NCBI RefSeq assembly: GCF_003289645.1
Contig: NZ_QLYX01000021.1
Location: 1-64,000 of the forward strand
Origin: Actinomadura craniellae
GTDB lineage: Bacteria > Actinomycetota > Actinomycetes > Streptosporangiales > Streptosporangiaceae
Direction: 5' to 3'
Length of the DNA stretch: 64,000 nt
The position numbers and the translations under genes were made by a program. The notes under the pieces are model-generated. The model had not been told where the DNA came from. It did no database searches and saw only the letters and a list, made by a program, of their open reading frames with translations. Below are positions 38,088 to 57,739 of this stretch, one piece after another; within the stretch, counting starts at the first letter, position 1; the number at the start of each line of letters is the position of its first letter.

Positions 38088-38283
38088 CCCCCTCTGTCAT
38101 CGGGACCTGAGAGCTTCACGCGGTCGCCCGCGCTTGCACCTTCGGTGGGGCGCGCCCGTGCCCGGGGCGCCCGCTTTCCAGAGGTACCTCGTCCGTGCGG
38201 TCCTTTTGCCTGAGAGGTTCCGGGGAAGTTGCCCCTTCGGCGGCCCGCGCTGGCGGCGTGGGATCTCTCCCGCACAGAGTCAT
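38088..38283 (-). promoter_or_regulatory. Tandem glycine riboswitch in the gcvP leader
   Basis: Reading the minus strand towards gcvP, the first aptamer starts GCGGGAGAGATCCC and contains CCGAAGGGGCAA and CTCAGGCAAAAGGACC. The second contains CTCTGGA, CCGAAGGTGCAAGC, GCTCTCAGGT and CGATGACAGAGGGGG. These are the conserved cores of the cooperative two-aptamer glycine riboswitch (gcvT motif). A GC-rich hairpin between the second aptamer and the ribosome-binding site (about 38045-38082) is the likely expression platform. Glycine binding is expected to turn gcvP on. Confidence 0.92.
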
Positions 38284-45987: not shown

Positions 45988-48486
45988 TCAGGAGCCGGCG
46001 CGCTCGACGACCTCGGCCCAGCGTTCCAGCAGGATCTGGGCGGCGTCACCGCCGGACCCCTCGGCCCACAGGTGGGTGACCGCCTCGGACGGGTCGGGCA
46101 GCACCAGCACCCAGCTGCCGTCGCCCTCGACGACCCGTACACCGTCGGTGGTGTCGACCGTCCGCTCCCCCGCGGCCTCGACGACATGACGCATCACGCT
46201 GCCCTTAGCCGCCCAGGGGGTGGGCACCGACCGGCGCAGCAGATGGGCGTCGGGGATGCGCTGCTCGATCTGCGACAGCGTCAGCCGGGTCCGGGCCACC
46301 AGCCCGAGCAGCCGGACGAACGCGGCGATCCCGTCGATCGTGGAGCTGAACTCCGGCAGCACGAAGCCGCCGCGCCCGTCGGCGGCGAAGATGATGTCGG
46401 GAGCGGCCGCCGCCTTGGTCAGCACGTCCTGGGAGGTGGAGGTCCACTCCACCCGGACGCCGTGGAACCGGCACACCTGCTCGGCCACCCGGGTGGTGGT
46501 CACCGGCAGCGCCACCCGGCCGCCGCAGCGTTCGGCCGCGATCAGGTCGAGCACCACGAGCAGCGCCCGGTCGTCGTCGATCGGCGTGCCGTTCTCGTCG
46601 ACCAGGGAGATCCGCTCCCCCACGGGGTCGAAGCGCACCCCGAACGCGGCCCGGGACGAGGCCACCAGTTCGCCCAGCCGCCGCAGGTCGCGCGCCCGCT
46701 CGGCCGGGGTCTCGGTGGGGCTGGTCTCGTCGAGCCGGCCGTTCATGGTGAGCACGTCGACGCCGATCCGGCCGAGCAGCGTGGGCAGCAGCAGCGAGGC
46801 CACCCCGCCGGCACAGTCGAGCACGATCTTCAGTTCGGCCTCGGGGACGCCCTTCATGTCCACCCGGCTCAGCAGGTCGCGGCTGTAGGTCTCGGCGATG
46901 CGCGCCGGGTAGCTCAGCTCGGCGATCTCTCCGGGGAAGGCCCGGCGGTACTCCTGCCGGCCGAACACCCGCTCCAGCTTGCGCTGCGCGGCCTGCGACA
47001 GGTCGGCGCCGTCGGCGTCCAGGAAGAGGATGTCGACGCCCTGCGGGTCGCCGGGGGTGGTGCGGATCACCACCCCGCCGGTGCAGTCCTCCCGGGCGGT
47101 CTCGAACCGGGCCACCGGCAGCGGGGCCGCTTCCAGGTCGGCCACGTTGATCGCGCTGGCGGTGAGCGCGCTGATCACCGCCCGCTTGAGCGTGCGGGCC
47201 GCCCGCGAGGCGTCCCGCGCGGTGATCACGGTGGCGCCCTTCTTGAGGGTGGTGGCGTAGGCGCTGGCCAGCCGGACGGCCAGTTCCGGGGTGATCTCCA
47301 CGTTGATCAGCCCGGAGACGCCGCGGGGGCCGAACAGGGTGCGCTGGCCGCGCGACTCCCAGATGACACTGGTGTTGACGACCGCGCCGGCCTCGATCGT
47401 CTTGAAGGGGTAGATCTTGACCTCGCTGGACAGGTACGCCTCGGCCTCGATGACGCACTCGTCGCCGACGACGGCGCCCTCCTCCACCCGGGCGCCGGCC
47501 ATCACGTCGGTGTTCTTGCCGACGACACAGCCGCGCAGGTTGGTGGAGGGGCCGACGAACACGTTGTCGTGCACCACCGCGCGGTGCAGGAACGCGCCCT
47601 CCTTGACCACCACGTTGCTGCCGAGCACGGTGAACTCGCGCAGTTCCACACCGGCCTCGACCTTGGCGTAGTCGCCGATGTAGAGCGGGCCCTTCAGCAC
47701 GGCCCCGGGATCGACCTCGGCGCCCTCGGCCTGCCAGACGCCGGGCGAGACCTCGAAGCCGTCCATCTCGACGTCGACCTTGCCCGAGAGCATGTCGGCC
47801 TGGGCCTTGAGGTAGCTCTCGTGGGTGCCGACGTCCTCCCAGTAGCAGTCGGCCACGTAACCGTAGAGGGGGGCGCCCTCGGCGAGGAGTTCGGGGAAGA
47901 CGTCGCTGGACCAGTCGACCGACTCGCCCGCGGTGACCCGGTCCAGGACCTCGGGCTCCATCACGTAGATGCCGGTGTTGACGGTGTCGGAGAAGACCTG
48001 GCCCCAGGTGGGCTTCTCCAGGAAGCGCTGGATGCGGCCCGCCTCGTCGACGATGATGATGCCGAACTCCAGCGGGTTGGGCATCCGCTTGAGGCCGATG
48101 GTGACCAGCGCGCCGCTCTCCTTGTGGAAGCGCACCATGTCGGTCAGGTCGATGTCGGTGAGGGCGTCCCCCGAGATCACCAGGAAGCGGTCGTCGCGCA
48201 GCGCCTCCTGGGCGTTCCTGACGCTGCCGGCCGTGCCGAGCGGCACCTCCTCGGTGGCGTAGTACAGCGACATCCCCAGTTCTTCGCCGTCGCCGAAGTA
48301 GTTGCGGATCAGCGCGGCCAGGAACTGGACGGTCACCACCGTCTCGGTGAACCCGTGCCGTTTGAGCAGCCGCAGCACATGCTCCATGATCGGCCGGTTG
48401 ACCACGGGGAGCAGCGGCTTCGGCTGGTTGGCGGTCATCGGCCGCAGCCGGGTCCCCTCCCCGCCCGCCATCACGACGGCTTTCAT
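45988..48486 (-). CDS. Mannose-1-phosphate guanylyltransferase/phosphomannomutase-like fusion
   Basis: The 832-residue protein has three parts. A nucleotidyltransferase domain comes first (1-235, VVMAGGEGTRLRPMT with the GDP-mannose signature). Left-handed beta-helix hexapeptide repeats follow (about 250-370). A phosphohexomutase-like region (about 380-825) ends it. In the mutase part the TASHNP phosphoserine loop is replaced by TARDASRAARTL (about 420-431), so phosphotransfer is doubtful. DGRGG-like and sugar-loop positions are also weak. The first domain should make GDP-mannose for mannosylated lipids and glycans. It lies upstream of the DUF881 set and overlaps the phosphatidyltransferase gene by 4 bp. 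Confidence 0.87.
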   Translation of the reverse strand: MKAVVMAGGEGTRLRPMTANQPKPLLPVVNRPIMEHVLRLLKRHGFTETVVTVQFLAALIRNYFGDGEELGMSLYYATEEVPLGTAGSVRNAQEALRDDRFLVISGDALTDIDLTDMVRFHKESGALVTIGLKRMPNPLEFGIIIVDEAGRIQRFLEKPTWGQVFSDTVNTGIYVMEPEVLDRVTAGESVDWSSDVFPELLAEGAPLYGYVADCYWEDVGTHESYLKAQADMLSGKVDVEMDGFEVSPGVWQAEGAEVDPGAVLKGPLYIGDYAKVEAGVELREFTVLGSNVVVKEGAFLHRAVVHDNVFVGPSTNLRGCVVGKNTDVMAGARVEEGAVVGDECVIEAEAYLSSEVKIYPFKTIEAGAVVNTSVIWESRGQRTLFGPRGVSGLINVEITPELAVRLASAYATTLKKGATVITARDASRAARTLKRAVISALTASAINVADLEAAPLPVARFETAREDCTGGVVIRTTPGDPQGVDILFLDADGADLSQAAQRKLERVFGRQEYRRAFPGEIAELSYPARIAETYSRDLLSRVDMKGVPEAELKIVLDCAGGVASLLLPTLLGRIGVDVLTMNGRLDETSPTETPAERARDLRRLGELVASSRAAFGVRFDPVGERISLVDENGTPIDDDRALLVVLDLIAAERCGGRVALPVTTTRVAEQVCRFHGVRVEWTSTSQDVLTKAAAAPDIIFAADGRGGFVLPEFSSTIDGIAAFVRLLGLVARTRLTLSQIEQRIPDAHLLRRSVPTPWAAKGSVMRHVVEAAGERTVDTTDGVRVVEGDGSWVLVLPDPSEAVTHLWAEGSGGDAAQILLERWAEVVERAGS

Positions 48487-49094
48487 CGGCCTTGCTCCGT
48501 TTCCTCGGGGCGAGCGCGGTCAGCCAGAATGAGGTGGCGCACCTGAGCGCCGTAAAGGACGGCCGCCCACCAGTAGAGGGCCGTTCCCCAAATGACGAAC
48601 GCCCAACCGATGATCTTGCCTGCCTCGGCGGCCGCGCCGGCGTGGTCGCCCAGCAGCAGCAGCGGGAACGCGTACAGCAGGCACATCGTGGCCGCCTTGC
48701 CGATGAAGTGCACCGGCAGGGTGCCGCTGTACCCCAGCCGGCGCATGATCGGGTAGATCGGCACCAGGGCGAGTTCGCGGGCCACCAGCAACACCACCAG
48801 CCAGACCGGGATGATCTCGCGCGCCGTCAGCCCGATCAGGGTGGCCAGGATGTACAGCCGGTCGGCGGCCGGGTCCAGGACGATGCCGAGCCGGCTGGTC
48901 TGGCCGAGGACGCGGGCCAGCTTGCCGTCGAGCCAGTCGGAGAGGCCGGCGAAGACCAGCAGCCCCAGCGCCCACCAGTCGAGCTCGGCCAGCACCAGCC
49001 ACAGGAACAACGGGACACCGGCCAGCCGGGCGAAGCTGAGCAGATTCGGCACCGTCCAGATCCGCTGCGGAACCTCTTCGGCCTGGGTGCTCAT
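48483..49094 (-). CDS. CDP-alcohol phosphatidyltransferase (PgsA2-like)
   Basis: The 203-residue membrane protein has the CDP-alcohol motif D-x2-D-G-x2-A-R...G-x3-D-x3-D, seen as SDWLDGKLARVLG and GIVLDPAAD, with five or six hydrophobic helices. It corresponds by position to pgsA2 (Rv1822). It joins a CDP-activated lipid to an alcohol such as glycerol-3-phosphate or inositol-phosphate; the acceptor cannot be decided here. Its stop overlaps the start of the mannose-1-phosphate guanylyltransferase gene. Confidence 0.88.
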   Translation of the reverse strand: MSTQAEEVPQRIWTVPNLLSFARLAGVPLFLWLVLAELDWWALGLLVFAGLSDWLDGKLARVLGQTSRLGIVLDPAADRLYILATLIGLTAREIIPVWLVVLLVARELALVPIYPIMRRLGYSGTLPVHFIGKAATMCLLYAFPLLLLGDHAGAAAEAGKIIGWAFVIWGTALYWWAAVLYGAQVRHLILADRARPEETEQGR

Positions 49095-49217
49095 GCGCCC
49101 TCACCTCCTCGCCCGGCGCGCTCCGAATCACTCGGATCTCCCCGAATTCCGCGCGGCCGCCTCTCTGCCGACCTTATCGGGCAGGTTTTCGGTCTCCGCC
49201 CGAGCGTCCCGACGAGA

Positions 49218-51488
49218 TCACCGCCGCGGGGAGACTGGGCCCGGCGGAACCGGCAGCTCACCGGTGTGAACGATGCCCAGCCGCCGGGTGGCCCGGGTCA
49301 GCGCCACGTACAGGTCGCCGCGGCCGCGCAGCGACTCGGCCAGGATCCGGGCGGGCTCCACGACGATCACCGTGTCGAACTCCAGTCCCTTGGCCTGCCG
49401 GACGCTCAGCACCACCACGGTGCCCGTCAGGTCGGCCCCCGCGCCGCCGGTGGCGCCGGGGACGGCGGCCACGACCTGGCGGCGCACCTCGTCGAGCAGG
49501 GCGGTGGGCACCAGCACGGCCAGCCGTCCGGCGCCCACCGCGGCGGCCTCGCGGGCCACGATCGGTCCGACACCCGCCGGGCCGATCGGTTCCCGCCAGG
49601 GCCGGACCCCGCCCGACCGGACCGACCTGGGGGCCTCGTCGTCCCGGCGGAGCCGGCCGGCGACCGCCATGATCTCGGCGGGCGTCCGGTAGTTGACGGT
49701 CAGCCGTTCCAGCCGCCACCGGTCCCCGACATAGGGCGTGAAGATCTCCGCCCAGGAGGACGCTCCCGAGAGGTCGCCGGTCTGGGCGAGGTCGCCGACT
49801 ACCGTCATCGACCGGCTGGGGCAGCGCCGCATCAGCAGCCGCCAGGCCATCGGCGACAACTCCTGCGCCTCGTCCACGATGACGTGCCCGAACGTCCAGG
49901 TCCGGTCGGCCGCCGCCCGCTCGGCCACCGTGCCGCGGGGTCCCGCCTCGAGCCGGTCGGCCAGGGCCGCCGCGTCCATCAGGTCGGCCGCCGAGAAGGT
50001 CTCCGGATCGGCCTCGTCCTCGGCGTCGATGGAGCGCGAGCCCGTCACGATGTCGAGCACGCCCTGGGCGTAGTCGACCTCCGCCCGGCGACCGCGCTCC
50101 CGCCGCGCCCGCTCCGCCCGGTCGTCCGTGCCGAGCAGTTCGGCCGCCTCGTCGAGCAGGGGCACATCCGCCTCCGCCCAGTCAGCGTCCGGGGCGCGCC
50201 GCAGCAGGTCCCGCTCGGCCGCCGGCAGCCCGGGGGCGGCGGCCGCGAGCCTGGTGGGGTCGGCGAACAGGTCCGCCAGCAGCCGCTGTGGTGTCAGGGC
50301 CGGCCACAGGTCGTTCAGCGCCGCCCGCACCCCGGGGGCGGCGGCCAGGTCCCGGCGCAGGTCCTCGATCTCGTCCGCGCCGAGCAGGTCCGCGCCGGCC
50401 TCGATGCCCGCGGACAGCCGGGCGGCGGCCGCGGCGGCCAGCGCGTCGAGCATCTCGGCCAGGAAGACCGGCCGGGCCTGGTTGTGCGGCAGGCGGGTGG
50501 CGCGGGCCCGGTCCCGCGCGCGGGCGCACCGGTTCGGGCCGACCCGCAGCCGTTGCCGGTCGACCACGACCTCCAGCCCGTCCGCCGGGGCGCGCTGGCG
50601 GTCGCGTACGGCGGCGGCCAGCACCTCCGTCATCGCGGCCCGGCCCTTGATCTCGGCGCTCGCGGGCGATTCCTCCGCGTGCGCCGGCGTCCCGGGGAAC
50701 AGGTCGCCGAGCGTGGCCAGCACCACTCCGGTCTCGCCGAGCGCGGGCAGCACCTGGCCCACGTAGCCGAGGAAGGCGGGGCTGGGGCCGACGACCAGCA
50801 CGCCCCGGCGGGCCAGCCGGTCCCGGTGCGTGTAGAGCAGGTACGCCGCCCGGTGCAGCGCGACCGCGGTCTTCCCGGTGCCCGGCCCGCCCTGCACCAC
50901 GAGCACCCCCGGGTGGGACGAGCGGACGATCCGATCCTGCTCAGCCTGGAGGGTCTCGACGATGTCGGCCATCCGGCCGGTCCGGTCGGCGGTGAGCGCG
51001 GCCAGCAGGGCGGCCTCGCCCGCCGGGCCGGCGTCCGTGCCCGGGCCGGCGGTCGAGTCGAGCACCTCGTCGTCAACGCCCGTCACGGTCCGGCGGCGGG
51101 TGCGCAGGTGCCGTCGGCGGCGGACGCCCTCGGGCGAGACGGCGGTGGCGACGTAGAAGGGGCGGGCCGCGGACGCCCGCCAGTCCACCAGCAGCGGGTC
51201 GCCCTCGGCAGACTCGGCGAAGAGGCCGATCCGCCCAACGTAGCGGCGCTCGCCGCCGTGCAGGTCGAGGCGGCCGAAGCACAGCCCGTGCTCGGCCGCC
51301 TCGACCTGGGCCAGTCGGTCGGCGTACCGGTGCGCTGCGGCGTCGCGCTCGGCCAGGCCGCGCGGGGTGCCGTCGCCCTCCGTCAGGGTGCGGGCGAGCC
51401 GGCATGCGGTCCGTTCGCGCAGGTCGTCGAGCCGGGTGTAGAGCATCGAGACGTACGCCTGCTCGCGGGCGATCTCCTGACTTGACAA
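49218..51488 (-). CDS. HelD-type UvrD-like ATPase (RNA polymerase recycling motor)
   Basis: The 756-residue superfamily-1 ATPase has a coiled N-terminal arm (about 1-60), Walker A GGPGTGKTAVALHR (about 200-213), Walker B FGHVIVDEAQELSPMAW, and motifs VNYRTPAEIM and VRQAKGLEFDTVIVVEP. The divided core with an N-terminal arm fits HelD/HelR proteins, which pull RNA polymerase off nucleic acid and in some actinomycetes confer rifamycin tolerance. I searched by eye for the rifamycin-associated element and did not find it. The start is a TTG at 51488 with AGGGAG 5 nt upstream. That start overlaps an opposite-strand promoter. Confidence 0.87.
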   Translation of the reverse strand: MSSQEIAREQAYVSMLYTRLDDLRERTACRLARTLTEGDGTPRGLAERDAAAHRYADRLAQVEAAEHGLCFGRLDLHGGERRYVGRIGLFAESAEGDPLLVDWRASAARPFYVATAVSPEGVRRRRHLRTRRRTVTGVDDEVLDSTAGPGTDAGPAGEAALLAALTADRTGRMADIVETLQAEQDRIVRSSHPGVLVVQGGPGTGKTAVALHRAAYLLYTHRDRLARRGVLVVGPSPAFLGYVGQVLPALGETGVVLATLGDLFPGTPAHAEESPASAEIKGRAAMTEVLAAAVRDRQRAPADGLEVVVDRQRLRVGPNRCARARDRARATRLPHNQARPVFLAEMLDALAAAAAARLSAGIEAGADLLGADEIEDLRRDLAAAPGVRAALNDLWPALTPQRLLADLFADPTRLAAAAPGLPAAERDLLRRAPDADWAEADVPLLDEAAELLGTDDRAERARRERGRRAEVDYAQGVLDIVTGSRSIDAEDEADPETFSAADLMDAAALADRLEAGPRGTVAERAAADRTWTFGHVIVDEAQELSPMAWRLLMRRCPSRSMTVVGDLAQTGDLSGASSWAEIFTPYVGDRWRLERLTVNYRTPAEIMAVAGRLRRDDEAPRSVRSGGVRPWREPIGPAGVGPIVAREAAAVGAGRLAVLVPTALLDEVRRQVVAAVPGATGGAGADLTGTVVVLSVRQAKGLEFDTVIVVEPARILAESLRGRGDLYVALTRATRRLGIVHTGELPVPPGPVSPRR

Positions 51489-51509
51489 AAATACTCCCTG
51501 TGGTAGAAT
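51482..51509 (+). promoter_or_regulatory. Near-consensus sigma-70 promoter, plus strand
   Basis: TTGACA (51482-51487) and TAGAAT (51504-51509) are separated by 16 bp, in an AT-rich island unusual for this genome. It points away from helD and towards no annotated gene on the plus strand. Transcription should begin near 51516. Confidence 0.75.
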
Positions 51510-51515
51510 TAGTGG

Positions 51516-51607
51516 GGGTTTCCTGATTTTATTCGCTATTTCAGGATAGTGCCTGCCCTACCAACGACGGAGCCCGCCACCGATTTCTTCGGTGACGGGC
51601 TTTTCTC
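51516..51607 (+). ncRNA. Predicted ~90-nt small RNA
   Basis: A near-consensus promoter (51482-51509) and a hairpin plus T-run (51572-51604) frame about 90 nt. They contain a first stem-like TCCTGA ... TCAGGA (51521-51526 and 51540-51545) and no credible open reading frame. The next plus-strand gene starts nearly 2 kb away at 53545. The RNA would be complementary to the helD leader if that transcript begins beyond 51516, and so could act as a cis-antisense regulator. No known RNA family was recognised. Confidence 0.5.
51572..51604 (+). terminator. Intrinsic terminator of the predicted small RNA
   Basis: A 12-position stem (GCCCGCCACCGA with TCGGTGACGGGC, one C-A mismatch) encloses the loop TTTCT. 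It is followed on the plus strand by TTTTCTC, a genuine U-run and rare among the hairpins in this window. On the minus strand there is no T-run, so it is oriented for plus-strand transcription, although it may also serve the MBL-fold gene ending at 51619. Confidence 0.75.
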
Positions 51608-51618
51608 GGCGGTACCGG

Positions 51619-52239
51619 TCAGTGACCGCGGGCGATCCACTCGGCGAGGTGGGGCGCCTCGGTGCCGATCTCGGTGCTCTCGCCGTGGCCGGTGCGGACC
51701 ACGGTCTCCGGCGGCAGCGTCAGCACCTTGGTGCGCAGCGAGTCGATGATGGTGCCGAAATCGGAGTAGGACCGGCCGGTCGCCCCCGGGCCGCCGCCGA
51801 AGAGGGTGTCGCCGGAGAAGACGGTCTCCAGCTCCGGCGCGTACAGGCAGACGGCGCCGGGCGCGTGGCCGGGCGTGTGCATCACCCGCAGCACCGTGCC
51901 GGCCACCACGATCTCCTGGTCGTCGGCCAGCGGCGCGTCCGGGGACCGGTCGGGATAGGTCATCTCCCACAGCACCTCGTCGGCCGGGTGCAGCCAGATC
52001 GGCGCGCCCAGCCGGTCGGCCAGCGCGGCGGCGGCGTTGACATGGTCGTTATGCGCATGCGTGCACACGATCGCCGTCAGCCGCCGGTCGCCGACCGCGG
52101 CGGCGATCGCCTCAGCGTCGTGCGCCGCGTCGATCACCACCACCTCGCGGTCGTCGCCCACCAGCCAGACGTTGTTGTCGACGTCCCAGCTCCCGCCATC
52201 CAGCGTGAACGTCCCGGACGTGACCAGATGCCCGATCAC
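51619..52239 (-). CDS. MBL-fold hydrolase of the formaldehyde detoxification pair
   Basis: The 206-residue metallo-beta-lactamase-fold enzyme has the metal motif [13 protein letters not shown] (HxHxDH) and further ligands in [20 protein letters not shown] and RTGHGES. Because it overlaps the mycothiol-dependent dehydrogenase gene (GTGA), the likely substrate is the S-formylmycothiol produced there. That thioesterase role is context-based. The GTG at 52239 is used. Confidence 0.85.
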
Positions 52240-53321
52240 AGCAGCACCACCGAGCGCAGCACCTCGCCGCGGTGCATCTTGTCGAAGGCGGCCTCCACAC
52301 CGTCCAGGGCGATCGTCTCGGAGACGAACCCGTCCAGGTCGAGCCGGCCCTGCAGGTACAGGTCGATCAGCATGGGGAAGTCGCGGGACGGCAGGCAGTC
52401 GCCGTACCAGGAGGACTTCAGCGCGCCGCCCCGGCCGAACACCTCCAGCAGCGGCAGTTCGATCTTCATCTCCGGGGTCGGCACACCGACCAGCACGACC
52501 GTCCCGGCCAGGTCTCGGGCGTAGAACGCCTGCTCGTAGGTCTCCGGCCGGCCGACGGCCTCGATCACCACGTCGGCGCCGTGCCCGCCGGTGAGCTCGC
52601 GGATCGTCTCCACCGGGTCGGCCGTCCGGGCGTTCACGGTGTGGGTGGCGCCGAACCCCCGCGCCCACTCCAGCTTGCGGTCGTCGACGTCCACCGCGAT
52701 GATCTTCGCCGCGCCGGCCAGCCGGGCCCCGGCCACGGCCGCGTCGCCGACCCCGCCGCAGCCGATCACCGCCACCGAGTCGCCGCGGCCGACGCCGCCG
52801 GTATTGATCGCGGCCCCGATCCCGGCCATCACACCGCAGCCCAGCAGGCCCGCCGCGGCGGGGGACGCCGCGGGGTCGACCTTGGTGCACTGGCCCGCGG
52901 CGACCAGGGTCTTGTCCGCGAACGCCCCGATGCCCAGGGCAGGCGACAGCGCGGTGCCGTCCGCCAGCGTCATCTTCTGGACGGCGTTGTGCGTGGCGAA
53001 GCAGTACCACGGACGCCCGCGCAGGCAGGCCCGGCACTGCCCGCACACCGCCCGCCAGTTCAGAATCACGTAGTCGCCCGGCTCGACCTCGGTCACGCCC
53101 TCGCCCACCGCCTCCACGACCCCGGCGGCCTCGTGCCCCAGCAGGAACGGGAACTCGTCGTTGATGCCGCCCTCGCGGTAGTGCAGGTCGGTGTGGCACA
53201 CCCCGCACGACCGGACCTGGACCAGGGCCTCCCCCGGACCGGGATCGGGCACCAGGATCGTCTCGACGGCGACCGGCGCGCCCTTCTGCCGGGCGACCAC
53301 ACCCCGTACCTGGTGGACCAT
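52236..53321 (-). CDS. mscR: S-(hydroxymethyl)mycothiol dehydrogenase MscR
   Basis: The 361-residue zinc-dependent alcohol dehydrogenase has the catalytic zinc motif [13 protein letters not shown] with FLLGHEAAG, structural zinc cysteines around [15 protein letters not shown], and the NAD motif [17 protein letters not shown]. The [11 protein letters not shown] segment is typical of the MscR/mycothiol branch. It oxidises the adduct of formaldehyde and mycothiol and may also reduce S-nitrosomycothiol. It is followed by the MBL-fold hydrolase in one unit. Confidence 0.92.
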
Positions 53322-53544
53322 GCGCTCTTCCTCTCCTCGGCGAACGGGAGCCGCGGTGCGGCCCCGGGCCGGATCCTGGCAGGCCGGCCCGTGCCGCCGG
53401 AGCGGGCTTCCGCTGTGCGGAAGACCTCCTCGTCTCCCGGCTCCAGCAAATCACGGGAGGCCGCCCTGCGGTCCCGCGAAGCGGGCGCGGGACCGATAAT
53501 GGTGGGCGCGCGGCACCCGGCGCGCACGGCGACAGGGAGGCGGG

Positions 53545-54165
53545 ATGGGCGGCGGGCGAGGACCCCTGCGCGACGCGCTGCTCGACGCGGCCGCCGAGTT
53601 GCTGTCCGAGCACGGCTACCGGGGCGTACGCGTCCAGGACGTCGCCGACGCGGTCGGGGTCAGCCGGCAGACCGTCTACAACGAGTTCGGTGACAAGTGG
53701 GGGCTGGCCCAGGCCCTGGTGCTGCGCGACAACGACCGCTACCTGGACGGCATCGACCGGATCCTGGCCGAGCACGACGATCTGTACACGGCGGTGGCGG
53801 CGGCGGTGACCTTCACCCTGAAGATGTCGGCCGACGATCCGATCAAGAAGGCCGTGCTCACCGGGTCGGGCTGCGACGAACTACTGCCACTGCTCACCAC
53901 CCGGGCCGAGCCGGTGCTGTTCACCGCCCGGGCCCGGCTGATCGACCACGCGCTCGCCCACTGGCCGCGGCTGGACGGCGCGACGGTGGCCGAGGTCGCC
54001 GACGCGGCGGTCAGGCTGGTCATGAGCCATGTGATGCTACCGGCCGAACCCGTCGAGCGGGTCGCGCGCATGATCGCCGACATGGTCACCCGCTACCTCG
54101 GCGAGCCCGTCCGCCCCGAGCCCCAGCCGGAAACCCAGATGACCGGGCAGGCCGGCGCCCACTAG
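53545..54165 (+). CDS. TetR/AcrR-family regulator
   Basis: The 206-residue protein has the TetR helix-turn-helix at about 8-55 (LLDAAAELLSEHGYRGVRVQ, VGVSRQTVYNEFGDKWGL) and an all-helical ligand domain. It diverges from mscR, starting 223 bp away, and may control it. GGGAGG precedes the ATG by 4 nt. The intervening gap has no other gene. Confidence 0.86.
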   Translation: MGGGRGPLRDALLDAAAELLSEHGYRGVRVQDVADAVGVSRQTVYNEFGDKWGLAQALVLRDNDRYLDGIDRILAEHDDLYTAVAAAVTFTLKMSADDPIKKAVLTGSGCDELLPLLTTRAEPVLFTARARLIDHALAHWPRLDGATVAEVADAAVRLVMSHVMLPAEPVERVARMIADMVTRYLGEPVRPEPQPETQMTGQAGAH

Positions 54166-54281
54166 CCTGATCCCACCTCGCGGCTGCTGAACCGGAGGTC
54201 CGGCGGGTCCGCCCGCCGCTTCGCCCTGCCTCGCCCCTCCTCGGGCGACGCGTTCCCTGCCAGCAGCCCGAAAGGTTCTCC

Positions 54282-55826
54282 ATGTCCTCCCCCCTGTCCT
54301 CCTCCGCGTCCCGCGCGCGCCAGGATCCCCGCCTGCACCGCGTCGACGACCGCTGGCTCCGCCTGCCCCATCGCCGGAACATCCCCGTCGAACTCTGCGC
54401 CGGTCCCGACGTCCCGCTGGAGCCGGGCGCCGTCGACGAGGTGCTCGCCCTGCTCGACACCGCGGACACGCTCGACCGGCTGGCCGAGGCCACCCCCGGC
54501 CTGACCGGGCCGCCCCCGCGCATCACCCGGATCGCGCTCACCCCCGACTTCCACAAGGGCGCCGGGGTCCCGATCGGCACCGTCGTCCAGACCGAGGGCG
54601 CGCTGCTCCCGCAGGCGGTGGGCAACGACGTCAACTGCGGGATGCGGCTGGAGACCACGGGACTCCCGGTCGACCGGGTCAGGCCCCGGCTGGCCGCGCT
54701 GGAGCGGCGGCTACGGCACCTGTTCTTCGAGGGAGGACGGCGGATCGCGCTGCGCCCGGCCCAGCGCGAGGCGCTGCTGCGCGAGGGGCTGCCGGGGCTG
54801 CTGCACACCGCCGGCGCCGACTGGGCCGGGCTGCGTCCCGAGGACGCCGCCGACACCGGCCGGGCGCACGCCGCGGCGTTCCCCGCGAGCGGCGCGGACG
54901 CCTTCGCTGACTGGGTCCGTGGCAGCGGCGGGGCCGGCCATGACGGCATCATCGGCGGGGTCGGCGGCGGCAACCACTTCGCCGAACTGCAGTACGTCTC
55001 GGCCGTGCACGACGCGCGGGCCGCGTACGCCTGGGGGCTGACGCCCGGCACGGTGGTGACGATGGTGCACAGCGGCTCGCTGGCGCTCGGCCACCAGGCC
55101 GGGGCCACCGCCCTGGACGGGCTGCGGTCCTCCTGGCCAGCCGGCCTGCCCCGGCCGCGCAACAAGATCCTGCCGTTCCTGCCCGGCGCCGACCCGGACG
55201 CGCCGGCGTCCCGGGCGCTGCGACGCTACCTGGACGCGTTCGGCAACGCGGCCAACTTCGCGCTCGGCAACCGCTTCTTTTTGTCCCTGATGATGCGGCG
55301 CGGGCTGGCGGCCGAGTGCGGCGACCCGGCCGCCCGCGTGGTGTACGACGCGCCGCACAACCTGTTCTGGCAGGACGGCGCCCGGACGGTGCACCGCAAG
55401 GGCGCCACCCCGGCCGGGGGGTACGCGGCGACGGCGGGCGGCCCGTACGCGATGTGGGGCGAGCCGGTGATCGTACCGGGCTCGATGGGCGCGGCCAGCT
55501 TCGTGCTGCGCGGCCTGGGCAACGCGCGCACCCTGGCCAGCGCCTGTCACGGCGCGGGCCGGCGGGTGCCGCGCGGGGCCACGGCACGGGCGGGGGACGC
55601 CGAACTGGACGCGTTCCTGCGGGAGTTCCGGGTGGTCACCCCGCTGGACCCCGGCGACCCGGCGGTGGCCCGGCGGCGCGACGTCATCGCGGCCTGGCGG
55701 CGCGACCTCAAGCAGGAGGCGCCCTGGGCCTACAAGGACATCGGGCCGGTGGTGTCGAGCCTGCGGGCGGCGGAGGTCGCCGAGCCGGTCGCCGAGTTGC
55801 GGCCGCTGCTGACCGTCAAGGGATGA
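54282..55826 (+). CDS. rtcB: RtcB-family RNA ligase
   Basis: The 514-residue protein keeps the metal and guanylate sites of RtcB: PDFHKGAGVPIGTVVQT, GNDVNCGMRLETT (Asp and Cys ligands), VGGGNHFAELQ, VHSGSLALGHQAG, YDAPHNLFW, GSMGAASFVLRG and SACHGAGRRVPRG with the GMP-accepting His. It joins 2',3'-cyclic phosphate/3'-phosphate to 5'-OH RNA ends. No archease or RtcA gene is nearby. It follows the TetR gene in the same direction after 116 bp that show no promoter I can name. Confidence 0.9.
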   Translation: MSSPLSSSASRARQDPRLHRVDDRWLRLPHRRNIPVELCAGPDVPLEPGAVDEVLALLDTADTLDRLAEATPGLTGPPPRITRIALTPDFHKGAGVPIGTVVQTEGALLPQAVGNDVNCGMRLETTGLPVDRVRPRLAALERRLRHLFFEGGRRIALRPAQREALLREGLPGLLHTAGADWAGLRPEDAADTGRAHAAAFPASGADAFADWVRGSGGAGHDGIIGGVGGGNHFAELQYVSAVHDARAAYAWGLTPGTVVTMVHSGSLALGHQAGATALDGLRSSWPAGLPRPRNKILPFLPGADPDAPASRALRRYLDAFGNAANFALGNRFFLSLMMRRGLAAECGDPAARVVYDAPHNLFWQDGARTVHRKGATPAGGYAATAGGPYAMWGEPVIVPGSMGAASFVLRGLGNARTLASACHGAGRRVPRGATARAGDAELDAFLREFRVVTPLDPGDPAVARRRDVIAAWRRDLKQEAPWAYKDIGPVVSSLRAAEVAEPVAELRPLLTVKG

Positions 55827-55885
55827 GCCCGGCCGATGACGGCGGCGTCCGCCCGGTCTCGCCGGTTCGGCGGCCGGGCGGGCCG

Positions 55886-56842
55886 TCAGGCCGCGCTGCC
55901 CCGCTCGGTGGCGGTCGCGAAGGCCGCGCGCAGCCGTCCAATCGCGAACTCGCGGGCGCGCAGCCCGTCGTCGAAGATCTCCGGCAGCAGGAAGAAGGAG
56001 TGCACCATCCCGGCGTAGCAGCGATGCGCCACGTCCACCCCGGCCTCGGCCAGCCGCGTCGCGTACGCGTCGCCTTCGTCCCGCAGCACGTCGCACTCCG
56101 CCGTGACGACCGTGGCGGGGGCGAGACCGCCCAGGTCGGGGGCGCGCAGCGGGGCCAGCAGCGGGTCGCGGCGATCGGCCCCGGCCGCGTACAGGTCGGT
56201 GAACCGGATCATGGTCTCGGCGTCGAGGCCGTGACCCCGGCCGTACGCGGCGTAGCTGGCGGTGTCGAACGCGGCGTCGGTGACCGGGTAGACCAGCAGC
56301 TGGTGGGCCAGGGGCAGGCCCTCGTCCCGGGCCCGCAGCGCGGTGACCGCCGCCAGGTTGCCGCCGGCACTGTCGCCCGCGACCGCCACCGTCCGCGGGT
56401 CGGCGCCATAGCGCTCCGGCCGGGCCACCACATCGGCGGTGACCGCCCACGCGTCCTCCACCGCGGCCGGGAAGGGGTGCTCGGGGGCCAGCCGGTAGCC
56501 GACGTTCAGCACCACGCAGCCGGCACCCGCGGCGAGTTCCCGGCAGGTGGCGTCCACGCTGTCGATGTCACCGATCACCCAGCCGCCGCCGTGGAAGTAG
56601 ACCAGGGCGGGCAGCGGCCCGGTGCCGGACGGCTCGGGGCGGTACAGCCGCACCGGGATCTCACCGCCCGGGCCGGGCACCGTCAGGTCGGCCACCTGGG
56701 GCAGTTCCCGGCACTCTCCCCGGTACGGTTCGCGCCGGGCGTGGCCGCCGCGCATATCCGCCACCGTGGGCAGGTTCTCCGCGCTGCTTCCCCAGGCGGC
56801 GAGCAGGTCCAGGAACCGTGCTGTCTGCGGGTGCAGGGCCAA
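55886..56842 (-). CDS. Hormone-sensitive-lipase-family esterase
   Basis: The 318-residue alpha/beta hydrolase has the oxyanion motif HGGGW (85-89), the nucleophile elbow GDSAGGNLAA, the acid in AECDVLRDEGDAY and the histidine in GMVHSFFLLPE. The TTG at 56842 is preceded by GGAGG with 6-nt spacing, so an unusual TTG start is well supported. The upstream ATG at 56855 is out of frame. Substrate unknown. Confidence 0.88.
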   Translation of the reverse strand: MALHPQTARFLDLLAAWGSSAENLPTVADMRGGHARREPYRGECRELPQVADLTVPGPGGEIPVRLYRPEPSGTGPLPALVYFHGGGWVIGDIDSVDATCRELAAGAGCVVLNVGYRLAPEHPFPAAVEDAWAVTADVVARPERYGADPRTVAVAGDSAGGNLAAVTALRARDEGLPLAHQLLVYPVTDAAFDTASYAAYGRGHGLDAETMIRFTDLYAAGADRRDPLLAPLRAPDLGGLAPATVVTAECDVLRDEGDAYATRLAEAGVDVAHRCYAGMVHSFFLLPEIFDDGLRAREFAIGRLRAAFATATERGSAA

Positions 56843-56902
56843 CCGACGCCTCCATCGCGTGCGGAACGGATGATCTCGACTTTATATCCGCACCGGGCGC
56901 CG

Positions 56903-57739
56903 TCATTCGTCTGACCTGGTCCGCTCGGCGGCCCGGTCACGCAGGAAGTCCGCGGTGCCGGGGTCGGCCGGGTAGAAGGACTCGATCGCCAGCTCGGCCA
57001 CGGTGATGTCGATCGGTGTCCCGAACGTCGCGATGGTGGTGAGGAAGGACAGCTCGCGGCCGTCGATCCGCAGCCGCAGCGGGACCACCACGTCACCGCC
57101 GGAGGCCGGCACCCCGGCCGTCCCGGCCCGGTCGCCCGGGTAGTCGCGCAGTTCCCGGTAGAGGTCGGTGAGCGCCGCGTCGGCGGTCAGCGCGACATGG
57201 CGGCGCACCCGGCCGATCATGTGCGCGCGCCACTCCCCCAGGTTCACGATGTGCCGGGCCAGGCCGTCGGGATGCATGCTCAACCGCAGCACGTTCAGCG
57301 GCGGCTCCAGCAGTTCGGGCGGCGCGCCCTCCAGGAAGAAGCCGGCCGCCGCGTTGGCGTCGATCAGGTTCCAGAACCGGTCGACCACCACCGCCGGATA
57401 CGGCTCGTGCCCGGCCAGCACCTGTCGCAGCGCCACCCGCACCGCGTCCATCCTCGGCTCCTCGATCGGGGTCTCGGCGTAGACCGGTGCGTATCCGGCC
57501 GCGACCAGGAGCAGGTTACGGTCGCGCAGCGGCACGTCGAGGTGCTCGGCCAGGCGCAGCACCATCGCCCGGCTGGGTGCCGACCGGCCGGTCTCCACGA
57601 AGCTCAGGTGCCGGGTGGACACGTCGGCCTCGGCGGCCAGTTCGAGCTGGCTGAGCCGGCGGCGCTGCCGCCAGGCCCGCAGCCGCTCGCCGACCGGGCG
57701 GGTGTCCTGGAGCGCGTTCTGGAGTGAGTCGGTCGTCAT
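56903..57739 (-). CDS. XRE-family regulator with MmyB-like ligand domain
   Basis: The 278-residue protein has an N-terminal XRE helix-turn-helix (LRAWRQRRRLSQLELAAEAD and VSTRHLSFVETGRSAPSR). A C-terminal PAS-like MmyB domain (about 110-270: VDRFWNLIDANAAAGFFLEG) follows and, in homologues, binds a fatty acid. Actinomycetes have many such regulators next to oxidoreductases. ATG at 57739 lies 64 bp beyond a TTTAC-N3-GTAGA palindrome. Confidence 0.86.
   Translation of the reverse strand: MTTDSLQNALQDTRPVGERLRAWRQRRRLSQLELAAEADVSTRHLSFVETGRSAPSRAMVLRLAEHLDVPLRDRNLLLVAAGYAPVYAETPIEEPRMDAVRVALRQVLAGHEPYPAVVVDRFWNLIDANAAAGFFLEGAPPELLEPPLNVLRLSMHPDGLARHIVNLGEWRAHMIGRVRRHVALTADAALTDLYRELRDYPGDRAGTAGVPASGGDVVVPLRLRIDGRELSFLTTIATFGTPIDITVAELAIESFYPADPGTADFLRDRAAERTRSDE

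Follow-up and report, generated by a model that had tools for sequence, protein, structure and literature searches.

A conserved antisense promoter over the helD start codon points to a probable convergent-promoter switch in Actinobacteria

In Bacillus subtilis, helD and pps are each governed by a pair of convergent promoters (Sudzinova et al., NAR 2026, PMC12802891). The stronger antisense promoter suppresses the sense promoter and yields a terminated ashelD RNA of ~90 nt. The start sites lie 39 bp apart (TSS to TSS), a 17-bp deletion abolished induction, and mutation of the antisense -10 element led to loss of induction by rifampicin (PMC12802891). The B. subtilis search motif of the authors permits 45-55 bp between the two -10 elements, and sites that overlap annotated regions were discarded in their survey. 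The authors state that not every helD is regulated in this manner and set the Actinobacteria, rifamycin producers included, apart because resistance genes of this phylum, helD among them, carry the RAE. In Streptomyces venezuelae, which encodes five helD genes, only the RAE-bearing one was reported to be rifampicin-induced (PMC8655204). We found no published antisense RNA at an actinobacterial helD in the open-access literature, and the passages on HelD and on antisense RNAs in a RIP-seq paper on polymerase-bound RNAs name none at helD.

Here we analysed a stretch of 64,000 nucleotides from Actinomadura craniellae (contig NZ_QLYX01000021.1, positions 1 to 64,000; hereafter the window). It encodes a class II-type HelD of 756 amino acids on the minus strand (49218-51488), which starts with TTG (51488-51486) behind a Shine-Dalgarno sequence AGGGAG (51494-51499, minus strand) and matches HelD from Mycobacterium smegmatis (PDB 6YXU) with an E-value of 5e-172. 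The protein scores below every curated cut-off of the NCBIfam HelR/HelD_MYCSM equivalogs (741.8 against 1100, 681.8 against 1051 and 455.6 against 750 bits), as do the products of eight other loci with the antisense layout described below. A probable -10 element of the helD promoter, TATCCT, is found at 51543-51548 on the minus strand (complement of AGGATA). This hexamer and its flanks, CAGGATAG, are the same in the relative L102; a recognisable sense -35 for helD was not found in the window. Directly upstream, at 51619-53321, genes for an S-(hydroxymethyl)mycothiol dehydrogenase and an MBL-fold hydrolase are both encoded on the helD strand, and read-through from them into helD is possible. 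Elsewhere in the window, a glycine riboswitch is located at 38188-38282 on the minus strand (Rfam RF00504, 66.8 bits).

On the plus strand, facing helD, lies a promoter composed of a -35 box TTGACA (51482-51487) and an extended -10 element TGG-TAGAAT (51501-51509; TGG at 51501-51503, TAGAAT at 51504-51509). The two hexamers are separated by a 16-nt spacer and together give 11 of 12 matches. It is the only promoter-like site between 46000 and 57000, where shuffled sequences lead one to expect 0.2, and also the only one in the whole window. Genome-wide, the pattern TTGACA-N16..18-TANNNT occurs at 19 sites in 7.5 Mb, as compared to 8 for a reversed control pattern. The initial annotation, made from the letters of the window, had described this promoter within an AT-rich island, and both descriptions are borne out: the GC content drops to 45% over 100 nt in a window of 72% GC, which ties for the lowest value. 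The annotation had put the element next to the helD start. The promoter does not lie beside the gene, however, but places its -35 over helD codons 1-2 and thus over the TTG start codon, and its transcript would read antisense across the leader and promoter of helD. The plus-strand TTGACAA is the complement of TTG-TCA-A at the helD start, and CTCCCT within the spacer complements the AGGGAG ribosome-binding site of helD.

The RNA predicted from this promoter is ashelD-like, ~90 nt long and spans 51516-51606 on the plus strand, with both ends placed from promoter and terminator geometry. An intrinsic terminator at 51571-51607 consists of a hairpin (51571-51601) followed by TTTCTC; its 13-nt arms (51571-51583 and 51589-51601) form 12 pairs with one mismatch. 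This geometry agrees with the ~90-nt plus-strand RNA with its own promoter and terminator that had been proposed. The predicted 95-nt strand folds 4.1 standard deviations better than shuffled sequences (z -4.1). A pattern scan of 46000-57000 did not list the hairpin among its terminators; the mismatch in the stem and the interruption of the T run are the probable reasons. Since the T tract is found on the plus strand only, we rejected the hairpin as a minus-strand terminator of the upstream genes. The RNA would leave the helD ORF behind, cross the helD leader and reach the probable helD -10, which is overlapped by a weak 6-bp inverted repeat TCCTGA/TCAGGA (51521-51546, plus strand) at the site where relatives carry a proximal terminator. 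Rfam gave no match above the gathering score in the region. A conserved RNA sequence was discarded as well, as 343 family genomes gave only weak matches to short GC-rich pieces. We likewise rejected the idea that the AT-rich island came from a phage or another mobile element: phages, plasmids and viral contigs gave no convincing matches, and a search of the genome did not reveal a second copy.

To judge conservation, we collected 80 helD relatives with 51-61% protein identity from named genomes and inspected 81 upstream regions. The same antisense promoter is found in Streptomyces, Micromonospora, Actinoplanes and relatives, Catellatospora and Dactylosporangium, and furthermore in Kibdelosporangium, Actinokineospora, Frankia, Streptosporangium and several MAGs. 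Within 909 kb around 80 actinobacterial helD genes we counted 67 promoters of the TTGACA type, 61 of which overlap the helD start in antisense orientation; the control with reversed sequence returned a single one. Exact TTGACA is present in 69 of the 81 regions, and all 69 read as an in-frame TTG start with a Shine-Dalgarno-like motif. The antisense -10, scored as present at 4 or more of 6 matches, occurs at a spacer of 16-19 in 62 of 75 loci and 23 of 27 genera, and any other 4-nt bin holds at most 8 loci. Moreover, helD codon 2 is serine TCA in all exact-TTGACA loci, while TCA makes up 2.8% of serine codons in the same genes, which argues for selection on the DNA letters and not on the amino acid. 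This argument is partly circular, as the loci were grouped by TTGACA, yet 69 of all 81 regions qualify. On the HelD tree the trait is clustered, requiring 14 changes compared to 30 in shuffles. Based on these data, the antisense promoter is almost certainly real and under selection. Free drift of both boxes, which would speak against the initial proposal, is decisively not observed; promoter boxes and position at helD are kept across genera, whereas the sequence of the RNA body is not. The suggested link to the control of helD as an RNA polymerase recycling factor is supported.

None of six true HelD_MYCSM/HelR-type loci has the antisense promoter over the start. Among 60 additional class II relatives drawn from the whole class, at most five carry it, and these belong to Frankia, Micromonospora and Pseudonocardia-like families (f19, f39 and f21, family names assigned by inference). 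A sister HelD clade from the family of the window (L188, L189, L190, L192, L180 and L182) displays an apparent ATT start preceded by GGAG as ribosome-binding site, and no conventional start codon is within reach before the conserved N-terminus; several of these loci carry an antisense TTGACG-N17-TANNNT deeper inside the gene.

We then compared the arrangement of the two promoters. In 42 of 62 loci, covering 12 genera, the two -10 elements stand 50-54 bp apart, and the start sites in relatives would be ~38-42 bp apart if transcription begins 7 nt after each -10. On the helD strand, the -10 reads TATATT in Streptomyces, TATCTT in Micromonospora and TATTCT in the Actinoplanes group. A clear sense promoter is seen in Streptomyces (TTGACG-N19-TATATT), while many others show the -10 only. 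Past the antisense -10, the antisense strand carries a hairpin and T run in 32 of 62 loci from 18 genera; the opposite strand does so in 5, and shuffles give 1.8. The pairing of these stems is kept, while their sequences vary between genera. As the terminator of Micromonospora and the Actinoplanes group begins within ~10 nt of the -10, the RNA of these genera would be ~30 nt long. In Streptomyces (e.g., L118 and L131), the sense -35 (TTGCGC, TTGTGC or TTGACG) falls within the loop or stem of a possible antisense-terminator hairpin; promoter and terminator thus use common bases.

The window copy departs from this arrangement. Its gap between the -10 elements is 33 bp, compared to 51 bp in L102, and judging from the -10 positions its start sites would be ~21 bp apart. 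Comparison of 51510-51548 with L102 and L085 suggests that ~18 bp between the promoters were lost, including the proximal terminator hairpin. With the proximal terminator missing, the distal hairpin would serve instead. The window copy may act through occlusion, may depend on a different promoter, or may be in decay.

What we observe at these loci is a promoter that lies antisense over the start codon, a terminator, deep conservation and, in relatives, a conserved spacing to the helD -10. We read this as a convergent-promoter interference switch on helD, in which the antisense promoter (P-anti-helD) faces the sense promoter, and we consider this explanation probable. That transcriptional interference is the mechanism also appears likely by analogy to B. 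subtilis; whether the switch reports polymerase inhibition, as suggested by the same analogy, is evenly balanced. In this model, polymerases starting from the strong antisense promoter would produce a short terminated RNA and run against the weaker helD promoter, and the resulting collision traffic would keep helD low through transcriptional interference. Once polymerase is inhibited or trapped, as is known for rifampicin in B. subtilis, the antisense promoter, being the busier of the two, would fall silent first and helD would be released.

An unlikely alternative is cis-antisense control, in which the RNA pairs with the helD leader and cuts its translation or stability, with polymerase collision being secondary. 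The initial annotation had proposed such pairing, and the RNA is indeed perfectly complementary to the start of the leader (~21 nt in the window and ~39 nt in relatives, estimated from the -10 positions). However, its predicted 5' end already lies past the complement of the helD Shine-Dalgarno sequence and start codon, and hence it cannot mask either. Moreover, the RNA of Micromonospora and Actinoplanes amounts to a mere terminator hairpin of ~30 nt, it is the promoter spacing and not the RNA sequence that is conserved, and the closest tested system acts by transcriptional interference instead of RNA pairing. We regard it as quite unlikely that occlusion or a roadblock alone explains the locus, i.e., that holoenzyme on the antisense promoter physically prevents initiation or elongation at helD and reports polymerase occupancy with no inhibitor-specific release. 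The predicted distance of ~21 bp between the start sites in the window, which would make simultaneous binding of two polymerases impossible, and the coverage of the helD start codon by the antisense promoter are consistent with this scenario, but the gap of 50-54 bp held by most relatives leaves room to use both promoters.

The idea that the small RNA of the initial annotation is free-standing, acts in trans and starts beside helD by chance is very improbable. It would account for a transcript with its own promoter, its own terminator and a stable fold. The body and the length of the RNA vary between genera, though, the promoter is bound to the helD start codon at every locus, and Rfam offers no match. 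The antisense promoter of a convergent pair is the more fitting description of the element. Finally, TTGACAA might merely complement a conserved helD translation start (Shine-Dalgarno sequence and TTG-TCA), with the -10 arising by chance and no promoter being present at all. The coincidence of the -35 with the start codon would fit, as would Saccharopolyspora, which retains a TTG-TCC start without a -10. Given that the -10 lies outside the ORF and is correctly spaced in 23 of 27 genera, that antisense terminators follow downstream, and that a rare codon occupies helD position 2, we consider this extremely improbable.

To relate the convergent-promoter switch to the RAE, we read the RAE core from the true HelD_MYCSM/HelR-type loci L195, L196 and L198. 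The core is absent from all 81 upstream regions, each of which shows at least two mismatches, and the best match in the window has four; RAE control of the window helD was ruled out on this ground. The genome of the window contains three RAE cores. The first (L288, C34:323900-328000) precedes an apparent operon of an Rgt-like glycosyltransferase gene and, behind it, a true HelR (1306 bits, cut-off 750). The two others (L289 and L290) are located before a second Rgt-like gene and before a rifampin monooxygenase (927 bits, cut-off 800), respectively. The RAEs thus head other genes, and the window helD stands outside the RAE-headed set of its own genome.

Our data raise the prospect that Actinobacteria possess a second, RAE-independent alarm for polymerase inhibition. 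In a large clade of helD genes of class II type, convergent promoters with near-B. subtilis spacing and the antisense -35 in the TTG start would sense trapped polymerase through promoter traffic and without any protein sensor, while the RAE regulon would operate in parallel within one cell. This proposal might equally hold or fail. The induction pattern in S. venezuelae is indirect evidence against induction by rifampicin and suggests that the actinobacterial version may answer another polymerase problem, or respond only under other conditions. If true, the sensing of polymerase inhibition by promoters alone would cross phyla, reaching Streptomyces, Micromonospora, Actinoplanes, Frankia and their relatives, and would explain why the TTG start and the rare second codon TCA are kept in these helD genes.

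How does this arrangement compare to known systems? In the interference cases of phage 186 and Shigella icsA (cited in PMC12802891), a strong promoter likewise faces a weaker one over a short stretch, but these cases involve no inhibitor sensing and no link to helD. RAE-controlled HelR (PMC10719064, PMC8655204) shares the control of class II helD genes and the tie to rifampicin; the RAE-bearing HelR of this genome is, however, a different paralog from the window helD. The closest counterpart is the rifampicin alarm of B. subtilis. In contrast to it, the actinobacterial HelD is of class II type, the antisense -35 overlaps the TTG start codon, and the strict B. subtilis motif fits none of these actinobacterial loci. 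Because the antisense -35 overlaps the helD ORF in all 69 exact loci, the filter against annotated regions in the published survey would probably have dropped them. The gap of 33 bp in the window would put its start sites ~21 bp apart, about the distance left by the 17-bp deletion that abolished induction in B. subtilis; with this gap and no recognisable sense -35, the window copy lacks the spacing feature, and we do not file it as a member of the B. subtilis kind. Common to both are the same gene, helD, a strong sigma-A-type antisense promoter lying between the ORF and a sense promoter that is only a probable one in the window, and an antisense RNA of ~90 nt with an intrinsic terminator, here predicted from sequence, while the 50-54 bp gap of the relatives falls within the 45-55 bp range of the B. 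subtilis search.
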